Below, in pieces: positions 2,461 through 9,170 of a stretch of 12,404 nt of DNA (positions within the stretch are counted from its first letter, which is position 1; each line of letters opens with the position of its first letter). The stretch is from Candidatus Calescibacterium sp. (GTDB lineage Bacteria; Calescibacteriota; Calescibacteriia; Calescibacteriales; Calescibacteriaceae), in contig JANXBU010000025.1 of NCBI GenBank assembly GCA_025060505.1, positions 3,803 to 16,206 of the forward strand, read 5' to 3'. Under the pieces are notes generated by a model, which made no database searches, was not told the DNA's origin, and saw only the letters and a program-made list of their open reading frames with translations. A program made the translations under genes and the position numbers.

Positions 2461-4065
2461 TCAGAATTTCGCTGAGAGCATAGTGTAAAAGATGTTGTAA
2501 TTTTTGAAGATTCCGAACTTTGAATTTTCTTCTCCGAAGGAATAGAATCCTCCAAGTTGTATTTCGGAGCTATCCCAAGGGTAAAGATATACAATAGGTA
2601 TTGTGGCAACTGCCCAAAAACCCTCTGAGAAATCAGATATGTTTACAATAGCTGTTGGAGATATTTTTACTTTCTCTCTGAAAAGTGGTAGCTCAAGTCT
2701 CAGAACAAAGTAATCTTGCAGGGGAACTATGAATCCTTTTTTAGTTATGCCGAGAAGTTCCTGAGCTTCTTTTGTGTAGTTTATCTCATCAGGAAATCCG
2801 CGAACATATTGCAGATTAACATAGAAACCATCAAGAAGGTCAAAAGTGTAGTCTACTCCAATAGAAAACTTGAAATAGTTGTTAAAGAGTTTGGCTTCTC
2901 TCACTTCTTCCTGCTCAAACTCCTGTGTTGTTGTGGTTAGAGTCACAATATCAACATAAGTTTTGGTTTTTGTCCTTATGAAGACCTTTCTTTTTTCTGG
3001 TATGAAGTATCCGCCTTCTAATCTTATTCCAACTCCGCTGATATCTCTTGCTATACCCAGTCCAAGCAATGTGAGTTTTGGATAGAAGAATTTGGTTTCC
3101 GTTTTTCCGGAAACTGTGGTTAGACCACCAGCAGGCGTTAGAACATTTTTGTACTCAATCCTGCTATTGATTTCAGAAGGAATCGGGAGATCAAAGTATG
3201 TTCTCAAAAACATAAGGGATATATCTGTTTTGAGTATTGTAGAAGCTAACCTGAACCCAAAGGGAGCATTTTTCAGAAGGTATTCAGGAAGACCTTCAAG
3301 AGTAAAATCTGCGGAAAAATTTTCGTATTGAATGGCTCTTGGATATGTTGTAACATCCGGATATCCAAAAGCTATTATGACCTCAGTGAGGGCAAACAGA
3401 AAGAGTCTATCGGTAACCAGTGGAGAGATTTGCCTGATTCTGTTTTCAAAAAGAGTAGAGGCTTCGGGTCTTCTTGATGCCCAAACTCCGGACGGGAAAG
3501 AAGCTGGTTTGAATGAGAAAAGATAAAGGGACTCAATTCTTGTGTCAGTTATTATGTCCTCCAGACTCGGAAGGTTTATATCAAGCTGCAGAGTAGTGGT
3601 TGGTATTCTTTCTCCGAAGTAATCTGGATCAAACAGATAAAAGTTTGCAAGGTCGTATGGATTTGCTATATCTATCGGACTCAAATCCGCAAGTCCCCAT
3701 TTCGTTCTCTTCTTTCCAGCTGTCAGATCTACACCTTCTATAAAAACATCAGATATTGTGATGAAAGCTTCATAAGGAACAATCTCTATTGGGATTATGT
3801 TTCTCCATCCAACGCCCTCTGTATCATCTGGTCTGAACACCAAAGATCTGTCGAAGAACATAAAGTCTGTTCTGGAATAGAAAGATATATTTTCCGAAAC
3901 GCTTCCATCTATTTTGAGTTTCAGATCTCCTCTTGTTGTGAGAAACTGTCCTGCTCTGGCCTGTATGAATTCCGGAGAAGAAAGAAAAATTGATGAAAAC
4001 AGTCTTATTTTGCCTCCTACACTTACGTCCATAAGTATCAGAAGTGCAAGTACTTGTGGTATCAT
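2461..4065 (-). CDS. Outer-membrane beta-barrel protein, DUF1302-like, partner of RND exporter
   Basis: The 534-residue protein starts with a short hydrophobic segment (about 3-17) that can serve as a signal peptide, although it lacks the usual leading lysines or arginines. The rest alternates polar and hydrophobic residues in the pattern of transmembrane beta-strands, and the last residue is phenylalanine, as in substrates of the BAM assembly machine. A conserved stretch at about 116-138 (AGKKRTKWGLADL, then SPIDIANP) matches the 'GRQ..WG....P.D..NP' signature seen in DUF1302-type barrels. The start is supported by AAAGGAGGAG just upstream (4071-4080). It is the last gene of the operon, 24 bp after the LolA-like gene. 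By context it is probably the outer-membrane exit or acceptor for whatever the exporter moves; this role is inferred. Family assignment is by signature and gene order only. Confidence 0.75.
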   Translation of the reverse strand: MIPQVLALLILMDVSVGGKIRLFSSIFLSSPEFIQARAGQFLTTRGDLKLKIDGSVSENISFYSRTDFMFFDRSLVFRPDDTEGVGWRNIIPIEIVPYEAFITISDVFIEGVDLTAGKKRTKWGLADLSPIDIANPYDLANFYLFDPDYFGERIPTTTLQLDINLPSLEDIITDTRIESLYLFSFKPASFPSGVWASRRPEASTLFENRIRQISPLVTDRLFLFALTEVIIAFGYPDVTTYPRAIQYENFSADFTLEGLPEYLLKNAPFGFRLASTILKTDISLMFLRTYFDLPIPSEINSRIEYKNVLTPAGGLTTVSGKTETKFFYPKLTLLGLGIARDISGVGIRLEGGYFIPEKRKVFIRTKTKTYVDIVTLTTTTQEFEQEEVREAKLFNNYFKFSIGVDYTFDLLDGFYVNLQYVRGFPDEINYTKEAQELLGITKKGFIVPLQDYFVLRLELPLFREKVKISPTAIVNISDFSEGFWAVATIPIVYLYPWDSSEIQLGGFYSFGEENSKFGIFKNYNIFYTMLSAKF

Positions 4066-4070
4066 CTTTA

Positions 4071-4079
4071 CTCCTCCTT
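4071..4079 (-). promoter_or_regulatory. Ribosome binding site of the barrel gene
   Basis: Read on the minus strand this is AAGGAGGAG, 5 nt ahead of the ATG at 4065. It sits in the 24-bp gap after the LolA-like gene, consistent with translation from a shared transcript. Confidence 0.8.
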
Positions 4080-4089
4080 TTGCTGAATA

Positions 4090-4884
4090 TTACTTTATTT
4101 GATCTGCTTGTTTTTTGAGAGTTCTTTGTGTGAAAATCTCATCAGATAAGTCTATATCGAATTTTGTATCCTTGTTTATAATTATTGTTTTGTGATTAGT
4201 TTTTTTATCCTCCACGATCAGTTCTTCAATGGTCCAGTACTTTCCAACTTTCTTGGGTTTGATTTTCATCGTTTTCCAGAGATTACCGCTTTCATCATAC
4301 ATTTTTGATTCAAGTGTAACGTAGCTTTCTTTTGAGACCACCATTTCTGTTTTTGAGTATGGTTTATCTGAGTTTGGTTTTCTTGTAAGGAGCAGTGTCC
4401 AAGTTTTATCATCTTCTGCTATTATTTTTGCAGAGTAATGTTTGGTTCTGTCTGTGGTGCTCAGATCATCGTAAGAGAGGTCGGAGCCCATAAAGTTTTG
4501 ATTTTTTGCGCTTGAAGCTATTCTTCTTACCTTACCGAATTCAGGCAACCAAAGGTACATCTGATCTTCCGCAAGTGTTAGGAACCCAACATCTTTGACA
4601 TCCTTTGGAGAAACGAACTTTATGAGTCTAATCGTTTCGTTACCCTGTTTTTTTGACCATTCCATCATCTCTCGTTCTTTTCGGTTCCCGGAGCTATCCA
4701 CAAGTATCATCTGCGAGATGCTGAACGAAGACTTTGGAGCGTTCATAGTTTCATCAACCTTTTCAAGTATCTGATCGCCACTTCCGAAAGCCTGTGATAC
4801 AAAAACAGAAAGAAATAAGAGGTTTGCCGCAATAATTTTCAGTGTCAAGTTGTTTTTGTTATTTTGTTTTGTATTTATGTTCAT
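4090..4884 (-). CDS. LolA-like periplasmic 'outer membrane lipoprotein-sorting' protein
   Basis: This is a 264-residue exported protein. I start it at 4884 because a strong AAAAGGAGGT (minus strand, 4891-4900) lies 6 nt before that ATG. The reading frame stays open to an ATG at 4944, but that start would overlap the exporter gene and push the signal peptide inward. The signal peptide has a lysine-bearing N-region, a hydrophobic core at about 15-29 and probable cleavage after AFG (34). The mature part shows the LolA-like (PF17131-type) hallmarks: the MYLWLPEFGKVRRI segment (109-122) and the FMGSDLSYDDL segment (131-141). These proteins have a half-barrel fold that shields a lipid or acyl chain in the periplasm. 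It sits between the RND pump gene (22-bp gap) and the barrel gene (24-bp gap), so it is the natural shuttle between them. True lipoprotein handling is not shown; the family name is historical. Confidence 0.88.
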   Translation of the reverse strand: MNINTKQNNKNNLTLKIIAANLLFLSVFVSQAFGSGDQILEKVDETMNAPKSSFSISQMILVDSSGNRKEREMMEWSKKQGNETIRLIKFVSPKDVKDVGFLTLAEDQMYLWLPEFGKVRRIASSAKNQNFMGSDLSYDDLSTTDRTKHYSAKIIAEDDKTWTLLLTRKPNSDKPYSKTEMVVSKESYVTLESKMYDESGNLWKTMKIKPKKVGKYWTIEELIVEDKKTNHKTIIINKDTKFDIDLSDEIFTQRTLKKQADQIK

Positions 4885-4890
4885 AGTGGA

Positions 4891-4900
4891 ACCTCCTTTT
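4891..4900 (-). promoter_or_regulatory. Ribosome binding site that fixes the LolA-like start
   Basis: AAAAGGAGGT on the minus strand, 6 nt before ATG 4884. No comparable site precedes the in-frame ATG at 4944, which lies inside the exporter gene. This site therefore decides the start. Confidence 0.8.
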
Positions 4901-4906
4901 TCATTT

Positions 4907-7753
4907 TTACAGGGACCTAATTCCTTTTTTGTTTTTCCTATCATAAATTATAGATAAAATTGCTGGAATTATTGTTAATGCTGAAGCAGCAGCGAGGCTC
5001 ATAACAAGTGCGGTGACCCATCCAAACCTTTCAATAAGCGAAAGGTCAGAAAGCACAAGTATAAGAAAAGCCAAAGATACAGCCATTGTGTTTGCTATTA
5101 TTGCTTTTCCCGTTGATATCATACTTCTTTGCAAAGCTTCCATATACTGGAAGGAAACAAGTTCTTTTCTTAGCCTGTGTATAGCATGTATTGAGTAATC
5201 TATACCAGTTCCTATTGCAACACCAGATATCATAAGTGTTCCGTAGTCAAGTGGAATATTTATAAGCCCCATGAATCCTAAGTATATTACAACAGAAAGG
5301 ATTATGGGTAGCATAGCGATTGAAGATAACTGAATTGATCTGAGTTGTATTATGAGCATAATGTATATAACGATTGAGGCGAACAAAATCGATTCAATTT
5401 GACTTGAGACTATTTCTTTGTCAAGCTGCCCTAAAAGAGGAGGCATTCCGCCTGCTCTTATACTGAAACTTGTGTTTTCACCGTTTAGACCGATTTTTTC
5501 GGCGACATCCTTTGGGATGTAAAAAACAGTTGAGAGCAGATATGATATTTGCCCTTTTATTTTTTCCGCTATTTCTGGGGAATTCTCGTTGATTTTCAGC
5601 GATGAATACAGATATTCTACTCTTTCTTTTCTTTCAACATCTTCAAAGATTTTTTCAATAGAGCTTATAAATCCTTCTAAATCATCGTTACTGTTGTTGT
5701 GATTCCCAGATTTTTGAAGAGCATATTGTACAGCTTCTTTTATGATTTTTGGATTTTGGCTGATACCATCTTTCTTGTGATTGTTTATTTTTTCTACAAG
5801 ATGTCTGATGAAATCGGTTGAGTTTGAGATTTCAATTTCAGATTCTGGGCTTTCCACATATTTTTGAACTTCTGAAACAAAACTTCTTACTATGTTTTCC
5901 TGTAGATCTTCGGAGATGGTGATATAATGATTCCGGAACTCTGAGAAATCTATTTTGTGCTTTCCTTGATCTATAAAAGATATGTTTTTTTCAAGTTCGC
6001 TTATGAGATAGCTGTTCAGTTCGTTCTTTTTTTCCTCTGGTATTTCTTCAGCGAATATTTTCACGAATTTTCTTTCTCCTTCAAATTTTCTGAGGTGCTT
6101 GAGAACTTCTATTATTTCTTCTGACTCTTCTTTTTTGAATTGAGATATTACTACTGCTTCTGAGTTATCTTGTGTGATAATTTGTTTGATGTTTGGATTT
6201 CCTTCAAAGAATATCCAGAGGTTTGCGACCTGCTCTCGTGTATCTGGTATGCTGTATGATCCGTATAATTTCCAGTTCATTTCAGAAATCAAATCTGCTA
6301 TGCTCTGTGGACTCCCCATATCTTTGTACATCGAAAGGTAGTAGTTTGCCCTCTCCATCTCTCTAAGAACTATGGGTTCTTTGATGTCTCCTTTGAACAG
6401 GAAGAAAACAGGAACAGATCCGCTAAATTGATCTCTGAGAATTTCAGATGCTACTTTTGGAGGACTTTTTTCTGGATAGAACGCAGAAAATTGCATTTCG
6501 GTTCTGACCTTCGGTATGAATATGGCACACAATACAGCAAGCCCAATCCATCCGAAGATTATTATAAATCTCAGCGAAATTATCATTCCAGCTAATCTAC
6601 TTAGATACTTTCGCAAGAAATCTTCAATTTTATCTTCAAAAGATGCTTTCCCGTTTTCCGATCTTCTTTCGTCTCTAAGAGAAATAACAACAGGTATTAG
6701 AACTAATGAAAGGATTGTGGCAGATATTACTCCAAAAGATACCGATATTCCAAGATTTGAAATGGGAGGAAAATTTGTTACAACGTTTGAGGTGAACCCT
6801 GCTATGGTCGTTATGGCGGACATAAAAACTGGAACCCATATATCCTTCAAAGTTCTTCTGATGGCTCCGGTTGGGTTTTCTCGTTTCTCTGCAATGTATC
6901 TTGAGATTACATGTATTCCATAAGAAGCTCCGATCGCTATTATTATAACTGGAATGATGGACGCCGATATAGTTAGAGGTATTCCAAATAGGCTGGTCAA
7001 ACCAAAGGCCCATATCAAACTAAGTATCACAGAAAACAGAGCCAAAACTACATAGCTTACTCTCCCAAGGAATACAAACAGAATAATCAGCATAAACACA
7101 ATAGATACTGGTATGAGTTTTGAAAAATCGCTTCTCATATATTTGTTTCCAAAGTATACGGTTGTCGGCATTCCACCTATGTAAATCGATTTTATCTGAT
7201 CACCTTTGTATCTTTCAGTGGTTTCATATATTTTCCCTATTACTTTGACCAAATCCTGTCCGTATGTTATATAGACATACATGTTTGTTATCTTTTCGTT
7301 TTGAGAAACTATCTTGCCTGCAAATCTTGGGTGTGACATAATGTAGCTTCTGATTTCATCCATTTCTTCTTTTGACTCTGGGATCTCCGGAATCAGGTCT
7401 GCTACTTCAATTCCATCTTCTGTCTTTTTTATATCAATTGAATTCAGAATGCTTATGACATTCGCAATTCCTTCTGTTGATTTGATTTCTTCCTGCAATC
7501 TTTTTAAAGTTTTCAGGAATTCTGTATCAAACACTGTTTGATTTGCTTCAGCGAGAATGAAGACAAGCTGATTTGAACCAAATTTTTCTCCAAACTCTTT
7601 GAAGAATTCCGCTTCCTTATCTCCTTTCGGAAGATATTCATCAATAACAAAACTCGTTTTGAGATTTCTCAGGGAAAAACCTAAAAGTATGCTCAGGACT
7701 ATAATGGCCAGAAGAGAAAATATTTTGATGTGTTTAGATTTAATTCTTGGCAT
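4907..7753 (-). CDS. RND superfamily exporter, MMPL type
   Basis: This 948-residue inner-membrane pump is likely driven by the proton gradient. The topology is the RND duplicate: one N-terminal helix (11-29), a periplasmic domain (about 30-211), five helices (212-230, 233-253, 260-282, 306-322, 333-358), then helix 7 (392-414), a second periplasmic domain (about 415-784) and five more helices (785-803, 808-830, 836-856, 884-901, 909-936). The helix-10 motif GTGIDYSIH keeps the aspartate (D852). The matching helix-4 motif reads GASYGIH, with serine (S277) in its place. Both halves carry the family's GGMP motif just before the membrane (193-196 and 768-771). The second periplasmic domain is about twice the first, because of a charged, helix-rich insertion at roughly 540-740. 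The gene heads an operon with the LolA-like and barrel genes. The substrate is probably a lipid or other hydrophobic molecule, inferred from partners. No good Shine-Dalgarno sequence precedes the ATG. Confidence 0.9.
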   Translation of the reverse strand: MPRIKSKHIKIFSLLAIIVLSILLGFSLRNLKTSFVIDEYLPKGDKEAEFFKEFGEKFGSNQLVFILAEANQTVFDTEFLKTLKRLQEEIKSTEGIANVISILNSIDIKKTEDGIEVADLIPEIPESKEEMDEIRSYIMSHPRFAGKIVSQNEKITNMYVYITYGQDLVKVIGKIYETTERYKGDQIKSIYIGGMPTTVYFGNKYMRSDFSKLIPVSIVFMLIILFVFLGRVSYVVLALFSVILSLIWAFGLTSLFGIPLTISASIIPVIIIAIGASYGIHVISRYIAEKRENPTGAIRRTLKDIWVPVFMSAITTIAGFTSNVVTNFPPISNLGISVSFGVISATILSLVLIPVVISLRDERRSENGKASFEDKIEDFLRKYLSRLAGMIISLRFIIIFGWIGLAVLCAIFIPKVRTEMQFSAFYPEKSPPKVASEILRDQFSGSVPVFFLFKGDIKEPIVLREMERANYYLSMYKDMGSPQSIADLISEMNWKLYGSYSIPDTREQVANLWIFFEGNPNIKQIITQDNSEAVVISQFKKEESEEIIEVLKHLRKFEGERKFVKIFAEEIPEEKKNELNSYLISELEKNISFIDQGKHKIDFSEFRNHYITISEDLQENIVRSFVSEVQKYVESPESEIEISNSTDFIRHLVEKINNHKKDGISQNPKIIKEAVQYALQKSGNHNNSNDDLEGFISSIEKIFEDVERKERVEYLYSSLKINENSPEIAEKIKGQISYLLSTVFYIPKDVAEKIGLNGENTSFSIRAGGMPPLLGQLDKEIVSSQIESILFASIVIYIMLIIQLRSIQLSSIAMLPIILSVVIYLGFMGLINIPLDYGTLMISGVAIGTGIDYSIHAIHRLRKELVSFQYMEALQRSMISTGKAIIANTMAVSLAFLILVLSDLSLIERFGWVTALVMSLAAASALTIIPAILSIIYDRKNKKGIRSL

Positions 7754-7775
7754 TTTTCATTATTTTAGCAATTGT

Positions 7776-7798
7776 TTAGAAATAGAAAAAATTTCTAA
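7776..7798. repeat. 8-bp perfect inverted repeat, possible operator
   Basis: TTAGAAAT and ATTTCTAA flank a 7-nt A-rich spacer. The 15-bp centre-to-centre spacing is compatible with a dimeric DNA-binding protein. It sits 23 bp upstream of the exporter start and about 80-90 bp upstream of the divergent gene. No regulator gene is visible nearby. Confidence 0.5.
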
Positions 7799-7876
7799 CA
7801 AATATAAAGTCTTATAGGAAGAATCTGGGAGTTATAAAGATGGGAATCCGGAAAAAATCTGACTAAAATATAATGA

Positions 7877-7883
7877 GGAGGTG
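7877..7883 (+). promoter_or_regulatory. Ribosome binding site selecting the TTG start at 7890
   Basis: GGAGGTG 6 nt ahead of TTG 7890. It overlaps the alternative GTG start at 7881 and lies 2 nt after a TATAAT box (7869-7874). If that box is the real -10, the transcript would start at about 7881 and lose half of this site. Confidence 0.6.
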
Positions 7884-7889
7884 ATAGCT

Positions 7890-8519
7890 TTGGTAGGTAG
7901 CATTATAGTTTCTTTCATCTTATTTCTTAACCCTGAAGCAATATTTGAGCAGGTTGAAAACAAGATCAAAGAAATAAATGATTACACCTGTTTAGTGGAT
8001 ACATATGAGAGAGCTGGAAAGGATGAGATGAAGAATATCCACAGATACTACTATAAAAAGCCGGGATGGATAAAAGTATCTATATTAGAAGGAGATAACA
8101 AAGGCTCACAAGCTCTGTATAATCCGAATGAAAGAAAGGTCAAGGGTCATGGTGGAGGAGCATTGAAATTCATAAAAGTATCTCTTCCTCCGGAAAATAA
8201 AAGGGTTCAATCTCCAAGGGGTTTTATGATGAATGAATCTGATTTTTCATCAAACCTGAATTTCTTGAAAAGAGCTTACAGAAACTCTCAAAACACATCT
8301 GTGGAGGACCTGAAGGATAGATGGAAAATCAAAATCGAAGGAATAAAAAACCCAGAGGAATTCAAAGGTTTCAAATCAATTGAAGTTTTGATCAACAAAA
8401 GCAGCAACCTGATTGAGGAGATAATATACTACGATCCTGATGGATCTGTTGGGAAGAGAACAATCTTGAAAGACATTCAGATCAATGTCGGACTAAAAGA
8501 ATCAGATTTTGAAATTTAA
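7890..8519 (+). CDS. Exported LolA-fold protein, DUF1571-like
   Basis: About 209 residues. The frame is open from a GTG at 7881. I prefer the TTG at 7890, because GGAGGTG (7877-7883) is then 6 nt upstream. The N-terminus (about 2-13) is a hydrophobic segment followed by an NPEA-like cleavage region, but it has no basic residue, which is unusual for a signal peptide. The mature part begins with an amphipathic helix (about 18-30), then a conserved-looking DYTC (31-34), a YYYKKPGWIK strand region (53-62), LYNP (77-80), a GHGGGALKF loop (86-94) and RGF...ESDF (110-119). This order (helix, 'K.P..ik', LYNP, then ESDF) fits the LolA-like/DUF1571 group, which binds lipid-like ligands in the periplasm. 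It is transcribed away from the exporter operon, across a shared control region, so a role as an alternative carrier is reasonable but inferred. Confidence 0.65.
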   Translation: MVGSIIVSFILFLNPEAIFEQVENKIKEINDYTCLVDTYERAGKDEMKNIHRYYYKKPGWIKVSILEGDNKGSQALYNPNERKVKGHGGGALKFIKVSLPPENKRVQSPRGFMMNESDFSSNLNFLKRAYRNSQNTSVEDLKDRWKIKIEGIKNPEEFKGFKSIEVLINKSSNLIEEIIYYDPDGSVGKRTILKDIQINVGLKESDFEI

Positions 8520-8528
8520 TAAGAAATT

Positions 8529-8544
8529 GGGGACGCCAGGACAC
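8529..8544. other. GC-rich 16-nt motif between convergent genes
   Basis: GGGGACGCCAGGACAC stands out from the AT-rich background in the 24-bp gap between two convergent genes and reaches into the stop codon of the coiled-coil gene. Read on the minus strand it is GTGTCCTGGCGTCCCC. The '(T)TGGGGAC' style recalls the borders of REP-like or IS200/IS605-type elements in other bacteria. One copy in a window cannot establish that. Confidence 0.25.
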
Positions 8545-9170
8545 TATTTTGCAATTGCCAATATTGATATGACCAATGTTGTTTGAGCGATCATCAAACC
8601 GACTACCCATTTTATTAAACTCGTTTTAAGGTCTGCTTTATCTTTTTCAGCTTTTGCTAGTATTTCGGCTTTGTCTTTTTCAGTTTTGAGTCTAAGTTCT
8701 TCTATTTTACCAAGGAGTTCGGCTTTATCTTTTTCAACTTTTGCTAGTATTTCAGATTTATCTTTTTCAATCTTTGCTAATATTTCAGCTTTATCTTTTT
8801 CAACTTTTGCTAGTATTTCGGCTTTGTCTTTTTCAGTTTTGAGTCTAAGTTCTTCTATTTTACCAAGGAGTTCGGCTTTATCTTTTTCAACTTTTGCTAG
8901 TATTTCAGATTTATCTTTTTCAATCTTTGCTAATATTTCAGCTTTATCTTTTTCAACTTTTGCTAGTATTTCGGCTTTGTCTTTTTCAGTTTTGAGTCTA
9001 AGCTCCTCAATTTTGGATATTATTTCAGATTTAAAGAGATCCATTGACTTGAAGAAGACTTCGGTAGTTAAGATATCTTTTTTTGAAAATTCAATATATT
9101 CAATTATGGCTTTTGCAACTTCTTCTCCAAGCTTCTCTTTCAGAATTTCATATGTTTGAATTTGATTCAT
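8544..9170 (-). CDS. Membrane-anchored repetitive coiled-coil protein, DUF1640-like
   Basis: The 208-residue protein has three parts. Residues 1-50 form a compact helical head (YEILKEKLGEEVAKAIIEYIE). Residues 53-180 are a long, highly charged coiled coil. Residues 186-206 are a C-terminal membrane helix (KWVVGLMIAQ onward). Head, variable coiled coil and a 'W..G...AQ' tail helix is the plan of DUF1640-like bacterial proteins, whose function is not established. The coil is made of 11-residue units of the type (V/I)EKDK(A/S)EILAK, interrupted every 51 residues by KIEELRLK. These 51-residue blocks begin at 53, 104 and 155 and are encoded by a perfect DNA repeat. No strong ribosome binding site is visible. 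The 111-bp gap from the FadL-like gene leaves room for its own promoter. Confidence 0.75.
   Translation of the reverse strand: MNQIQTYEILKEKLGEEVAKAIIEYIEFSKKDILTTEVFFKSMDLFKSEIISKIEELRLKTEKDKAEILAKVEKDKAEILAKIEKDKSEILAKVEKDKAELLGKIEELRLKTEKDKAEILAKVEKDKAEILAKIEKDKSEILAKVEKDKAELLGKIEELRLKTEKDKAEILAKAEKDKADLKTSLIKWVVGLMIAQTTLVISILAIAK
8651..9002. repeat. Perfect 153-bp tandem repeat, 2.3 copies, within the coiled-coil gene
   Basis: Copies run 8651-8803 and 8804-8956, with a partial third copy at 8957-9002. I compared the two full copies base by base and found no difference. The first mismatches are at 8650 and 9003. The period is a multiple of three (51 codons), so copy-number change keeps the frame. 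Inside each unit are related 33-bp (11-codon) sub-repeats that differ slightly, so a small unit diverged first and the larger block duplicated recently. Confidence 0.93.

Follow-up and report, generated by a model that had tools for sequence, protein, structure and literature searches.

The closest described relatives of the locus reported here are the TetR–MMPL operons of the Bacteroidota. In Porphyromonas gingivalis, the genes encoding a TetR regulator, an MMPL pump, and an 'outer membrane lipoprotein-sorting protein' are among those most strongly induced under heme/iron limitation, and the counterpart operon in Prevotella is likewise induced when heme or iron is limiting (PMC10470040, PMC10434189). 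LolA3 of P. gingivalis binds LolB barely or weakly (PMC13103446), and deletion of lolA3 in Flavobacterium johnsoniae has no phenotype (PMC11885536). We analyzed a stretch of 12,404 nucleotides from Candidatus Calescibacterium sp. (the window; G000:C33:3803-16206 in our numbering of genomes and contigs) in which a minus-strand operon (7753-2461) encodes an MMPL/RND pump, a LolA-like carrier, and an outer-membrane barrel, in this order, and a divergent gene encodes a protein with a second, predicted LolA fold (the second carrier; Table 1). The pump and carrier families are those of the P. gingivalis PG1175-PG1181 region and LolA3 (9tp6), and the published Bacteroidota gene set, like the window, includes one further gene of unassigned function; however, the published operons are heme/iron regulated, and the window has no TetR gene and has instead the divergent gene.

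Three other systems are, in our judgment and by analogy, the closest functional analogues. AmeABCD of Castellaniella defragrans, the deletion of which lowers monoterpene tolerance (PMC6394551), also combines an HAE3-type pump, a periplasmic protein of the LolA superfamily (DUF1329), an outer-membrane protein, and one extra periplasmic protein; it differs in its DUF1302 outer-membrane protein, its longer DUF1329 carrier, and its extra protein, AmeC, that is a COG4447 member and not LolA-fold. In Thalassolituus oleivorans, a protein with MMPL and LolA-like domains, encoded next to a porin, is raised on C28 alkane (PMC6304351). The transport genes of aryl-polyene clusters encode a LolA-like protein, an RND transporter, and a LolB-like DUF3261 protein (PMC8253772), that is, a single RND pump accompanied by two LolA-fold proteins; however, these are biosynthetic clusters, the second LolA-fold protein is annotated as LolB-like and not DUF1571-like, and the printed gene list contains no barrel gene. 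By sequence, the second carrier is closest to the GerS/DUF1571 family, which has the same fold, with scores under the curated cut-offs (vide infra); GerS itself, a lipoprotein of spore formation, activates the amidase CwlD (PMC8496864), whereas no amidase is seen at the window locus.

Our preferred reading, to which we give an even chance, is that the operon is a trans-envelope exporter and that the divergent gene encodes an optional LolA-fold lipid-binding protein of the same pathway that is not part of the core. The identities of the core proteins are as follows. The pump matches PF03176 (MMPL) at 157 bits (Pfam cut-off 20.5); its best NCBIfam match is TIGR00921 (HAE3; 231.4 bits, E 1.7e-68), below the cut-off of 351.9. 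Among 69 homologues, D852 and H856 in transmembrane helix 10 are invariant and Y853 is present in 68; in transmembrane helix 4, Y278 and H281 are present without an Asp. When compared with that of other MMPL/RND pumps, this arrangement looks like a one-sided (asymmetric) version of the proton site. The carrier matches PF17131 (LolA_like) at 168 bits (Pfam cut-off 30), and its family profile finds P. gingivalis LolA3 (PDB 9tp6) with an E-value of 1.6e-46, assigning it by sequence to the Bacteroidota LolA3 family. Its start is the ATG at 4884 that follows the Shine-Dalgarno sequence AAAAGGAGG, not the longer mechanical open reading frame start at 4944. PGN0947 (LolA3) is probably the P. gingivalis lipoprotein-sorting gene mentioned above. 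The barrel has no Pfam match; its AlphaFold model (pLDDT 83.7) resembles MOMP, the OprD/Occ porins, and AlgE (Z 21-23), and its sequence is 22-37% identical to those of the barrels in the same position of 29 other operons. The genes are separated by 22 bp (pump/carrier, 4885-4906) and 24 bp (carrier/barrel, 4066-4089), in agreement with the tight packing that had been described previously.

The genome contexts of the carrier's relatives place the core, on family and gene order, in a known, widespread operon type. A profile from the carrier alignment recovered at least 80 named loci (further ones exist), of which we used the 30 that are flanked by 4.5 kb or more on either side (the long-flank operons). 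All 30 contain the pump and the barrel, and 23 have a TetR gene near the carrier; patatin-like phospholipase genes are located in or beside eight and family 2 glycosyltransferase genes in or beside seven, pointing to a lipid or glycolipid cargo (the TetR, patatin-like, and glycosyltransferase identities were assigned by Pfam on examples, and the counts use profiles built from those examples). The window operon has the adjoining MMPL gene, the PF17131 carrier, and the homologous downstream barrel of this family; the upstream TetR gene, which is common, not universal, and not required, is absent, and no TetR gene is found within 8 kb of the window carrier, a span that includes the DNA upstream of the pump gene. 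LolA3-type carriers (E <= 1e-25) are present in 166 of 385 genomes; a contig search with the pump alone as query yielded no confirmed relative. The preliminary description of this DNA had called the core a known arrangement of poorly defined function; this was fair, except that the published induction and analogue data now give that function some content.

Among its relatives, the window carrier is closest to one in genome G018 (47-48% identical). For the window's own phylum we compared five genomes, G000 and four phylum mates. The mates contain distant partial RND matches to the pump (best E 2.7e-10 to 6.7e-13, 21-28% identity) and a single carrier that is ~30% identical to the window carrier and resembles a separate G000 copy on contig C27; gain of the window operon by transfer and its loss in the other genomes cannot be told apart. 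The source genome is incomplete (2.28 Mb, 115 contigs, 86% complete). The C27 copy (G000:C27:143503-144171; L092 8477-9184) has no adjoining pump and is followed by a barrel-like gene; this pump-less carrier is kept in all five phylum genomes, and a minimum of four copies (L092, L100, L101, L103) are followed by a barrel or barrel-like gene.

The divergent gene begins with the TTG at 7890, which follows AGGAGG; 136 bp separate it from the start of the pump gene. Its product scores 18.4 bits against DUF1571 (PF07608; curated gathering cut-off 27) and 20.8 bits against GerS (NF041286; E 2e-4, cut-off 175), that is, below both cut-offs. Its AlphaFold model (pLDDT 94.6, 26-row alignment) matches Bacteroides LolA (4mxt) with a Z of 16.2 and a root-mean-square deviation of 2.9 over 170 residues; other structural matches are 2yzy (Z 15.2), RseB, MucB, and LolA (~13-13.5), and LprG (~12), a mycobacterial lipid-binding lipoprotein. 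The predicted structure is an open beta-barrel with covering helices that matches the solved structures of LolA, LolB, and RseB, so we assign the protein to the LolA fold on its model. Both carriers had been described as LolA-like, and PF17131 (4090-4884) and the predicted fold (7890-8519) bear this out; the second had also been described as different from the first, and BLASTP between the two finds nothing (E 0.73). A profile-profile comparison of the two gives a 97.5% probability of common descent. We considered a LolB-like lipoprotein and rejected it because the N-terminus, MVGSIIVSFILFLNPEA, has no lipobox cysteine. A tblastn search of phage records with the second carrier gave no match, and a full-text literature search for DUF1571 found no paper.

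Table 1. Features of the pump operon and the divergent gene in the window.
Feature	Coordinates	Strand	Basis
Outer-membrane beta-barrel, 534 aa, third operon gene	2461..4065	-	AlphaFold model, position
LolA_like / LolA3-type periplasmic carrier, 264 aa, signal-peptide-like N-terminus	4090..4884	-	PF17131
MMPL/HAE3-like RND pump, 948 aa	4907..7753	-	PF03176
A+T-rich divergent intergenic region, 136 bp	7754..7889		27% G+C
Second LolA-fold protein (predicted), DUF1571/GerS-like, 209 aa, TTG start	7890..8519	+	AlphaFold model

Relatives of the second carrier were found in 31 of 386 genomes with a 3-row profile and in 42 of 385 with a 26-row profile. Three genomes beyond the window's own, from two phyla, have such a gene linked to the operon. 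In G042, the pump, carrier, second carrier, and barrel genes follow one another on one strand; G060, from the same phylum, has the same order with an inserted beta-helix gene; and in G122 the second-carrier gene is ~2.3 kb from the pump and converges on it, with two dehydrogenase-like genes between. Thus, neither of the outcomes that the preliminary description had named as telling against it, a second carrier never near the operon in relatives or a fold unlike LolA, was found. From ~57 hits, ~0.7 carriers per genome, a 16-kb window, and 3-Mb genomes, we estimate that ~0.2 linked loci would be expected by chance, so we regard the association between the operon and the second carrier as suggestive, not strong. 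When more linked cases were sought, the phylum of G018 was represented by one genome and that of G122 by two. The idea of the extra carrier as a fixed component of the module did not survive the survey: the gene is absent from all 30 long-flank operons, from the four phylum mates, and from the G018 operon, and most of its relatives are unlinked, so we rejected it as a conserved part of the operon.

The unlinked relatives are found in contexts that fit lipid handling. In G173 and G310 (L070, L071), a DUF1571-like gene is flanked by one for an acyl-CoA ligase and one for a GMC oxidoreductase, and FadL is encoded on the far side of the ligase gene, an arrangement that suggests the handling of fatty substrates; in G364 and G098, the relatives are beside PlsY-type acyltransferase genes (neighbors were identified by Pfam in G173 and G364 and by sequence resemblance in G310 and G098).

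In the exporter that we propose, a form lacking TetR of the usual TetR, MMPL pump, LolA3-type carrier, and barrel series, the pump would be driven by proton flow via the Asp-Tyr/His site in transmembrane helix 10 and would extract its cargo, a hydrophobic or amphiphilic molecule, from the inner membrane's outer face; on the way across the periplasm, this cargo would be shielded by the LolA3-type carrier; and the barrel would receive it or release it at the outer membrane. The second carrier would most likely be an optional relay or an alternative carrier in the same pathway; the preliminary description had put forward two ligands, or a carrier that competes or senses, as putative reasons for the extra protein. 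We infer the direction of export, the lipid-like cargo, the proton coupling, and the shared pathway. The weak binding of LolB by LolA3 (PMC13103446) is consistent with another partner for LolA3, and the aryl-polyene clusters offer a precedent, by analogy, for a single RND pump with a pair of LolA-fold proteins. A more specific version, in which cargo from the pump is picked up by the LolA3-type carrier and transferred mouth-to-mouth to the DUF1571-like protein, the latter then supplying the barrel (a LolA-LolB-like pair for one non-lipoprotein cargo), seems to us improbable.

Several observations weigh against our preferred reading. The second carrier is missing from nearly all operons, and its adjacency in a single genome can be accidental. 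Both in-operon copies are broken: in that of G042 (L065 7534-8175) an in-frame TGA stands in the place of a tryptophan codon, and that of G060 (L075 7319-7962) contains a frameshift; either interruption could reflect assembly error or decay. In a tree built from 27 second-carrier proteins, the window protein has no settled position and does not group with these two copies. The N-terminus of the second carrier, MVGSIIVSFILFLN, is hydrophobic; because it has no basic residues, periplasmic export of the protein is not certain. For this organism, the function of the module is a prediction. Accidental adjacency is the substance of a reading that we judge to have an appreciable chance of being correct, namely a complete three-gene exporter beside an unrelated gene for a stand-alone DUF1571-type lipid-binding protein: it agrees with the count of none in 30 long-flank operons, with the location of nearly all second-carrier relatives among the 385 genomes far from such operons, with the unsettled deep placement in the tree, and with the lack of both the second carrier and this pump in the four phylum mates. 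It does not, however, account readily for three linked loci in two other phyla when ~0.2 are expected, for an arrangement in which the gene separates those for the carrier and the barrel and shares their strand, or for its divergent placement over a 136-bp region in the window.

The direction of transport and the role of the second protein can also be read differently. The operon could be an inward module, in which a hydrophobic compound enters through the barrel and is delivered to the inner membrane by the carrier, with the pump acting as a lipid transferase. Induction of the P. gingivalis and Prevotella operons by heme/iron limitation is as in uptake systems (PMC10434189, PMC10470040), OprD-family uptake porins are among the best structural matches of the barrel, and DUF1571-like relatives occur beside FadL and acyl-CoA ligase. 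However, AlgE, an exporter, is an equally good match to the barrel, and many of the operons include a TetR gene, as is typical of exporters. The MMPL/HAE3 pumps with known function, such as HpnN and MmpL, export lipids. AmeABCD agrees with this direction and protects against monoterpenes (PMC6394551); we consider inward transport unlikely. The second protein might instead be an RseB/MucB-like lipid sensor of cargo or envelope state that controls the operon and replaces the usual upstream TetR: its gene is divergent and occupies the site where 23 of the 30 relatives have TetR, and the better structural matches of the protein include RseB and MucB (Z ~13.5). We find this very doubtful, since LolA proteins match about as well, the second RseB domain is lacking, no partner anti-sigma gene is seen nearby, and the G042 and G060 copies are inside the operon, like a structural component.

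The Bacteroidota LolA3, the role of which is unassigned in two recent papers, can now be placed in the carrier family of the TetR-MMPL-carrier-barrel operon; therefore, the pump and the barrel, rather than LolB, are suggested as its partners, a proposal that is testable in model Bacteroidota. If the second carrier is a relay partner, as may hold in aryl-polyene clusters, it would be important.

That the pump operon and the divergent gene share one control region is plausible but unproven from the sequence. Three promoter-like sites are found in 7754-7889, a number close to that in shuffled sequence (mean 1.3), and no terminator is found there. A palindromic operator in this region was rejected: the inverted repeat at 7771-7803 (13-nt arms, 11/13 matches) is within chance, being equalled by 34 of 300 shuffles.

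Elsewhere in the window, 352-2295 encodes a 647-aa ribonucleotide reductase of class II (B12-dependent; TIGR02504, 507 bits), the C-terminus of which is rich in cysteine and zinc-ribbon-like. A 153-bp tandem repeat (8635-9014; 2.5 copies, 98% match) is located within the minus-strand gene at 8544-9170, the product of which is lysine/glutamate-rich and coiled-coil-like, with a hydrophobic stretch at its C-terminus.

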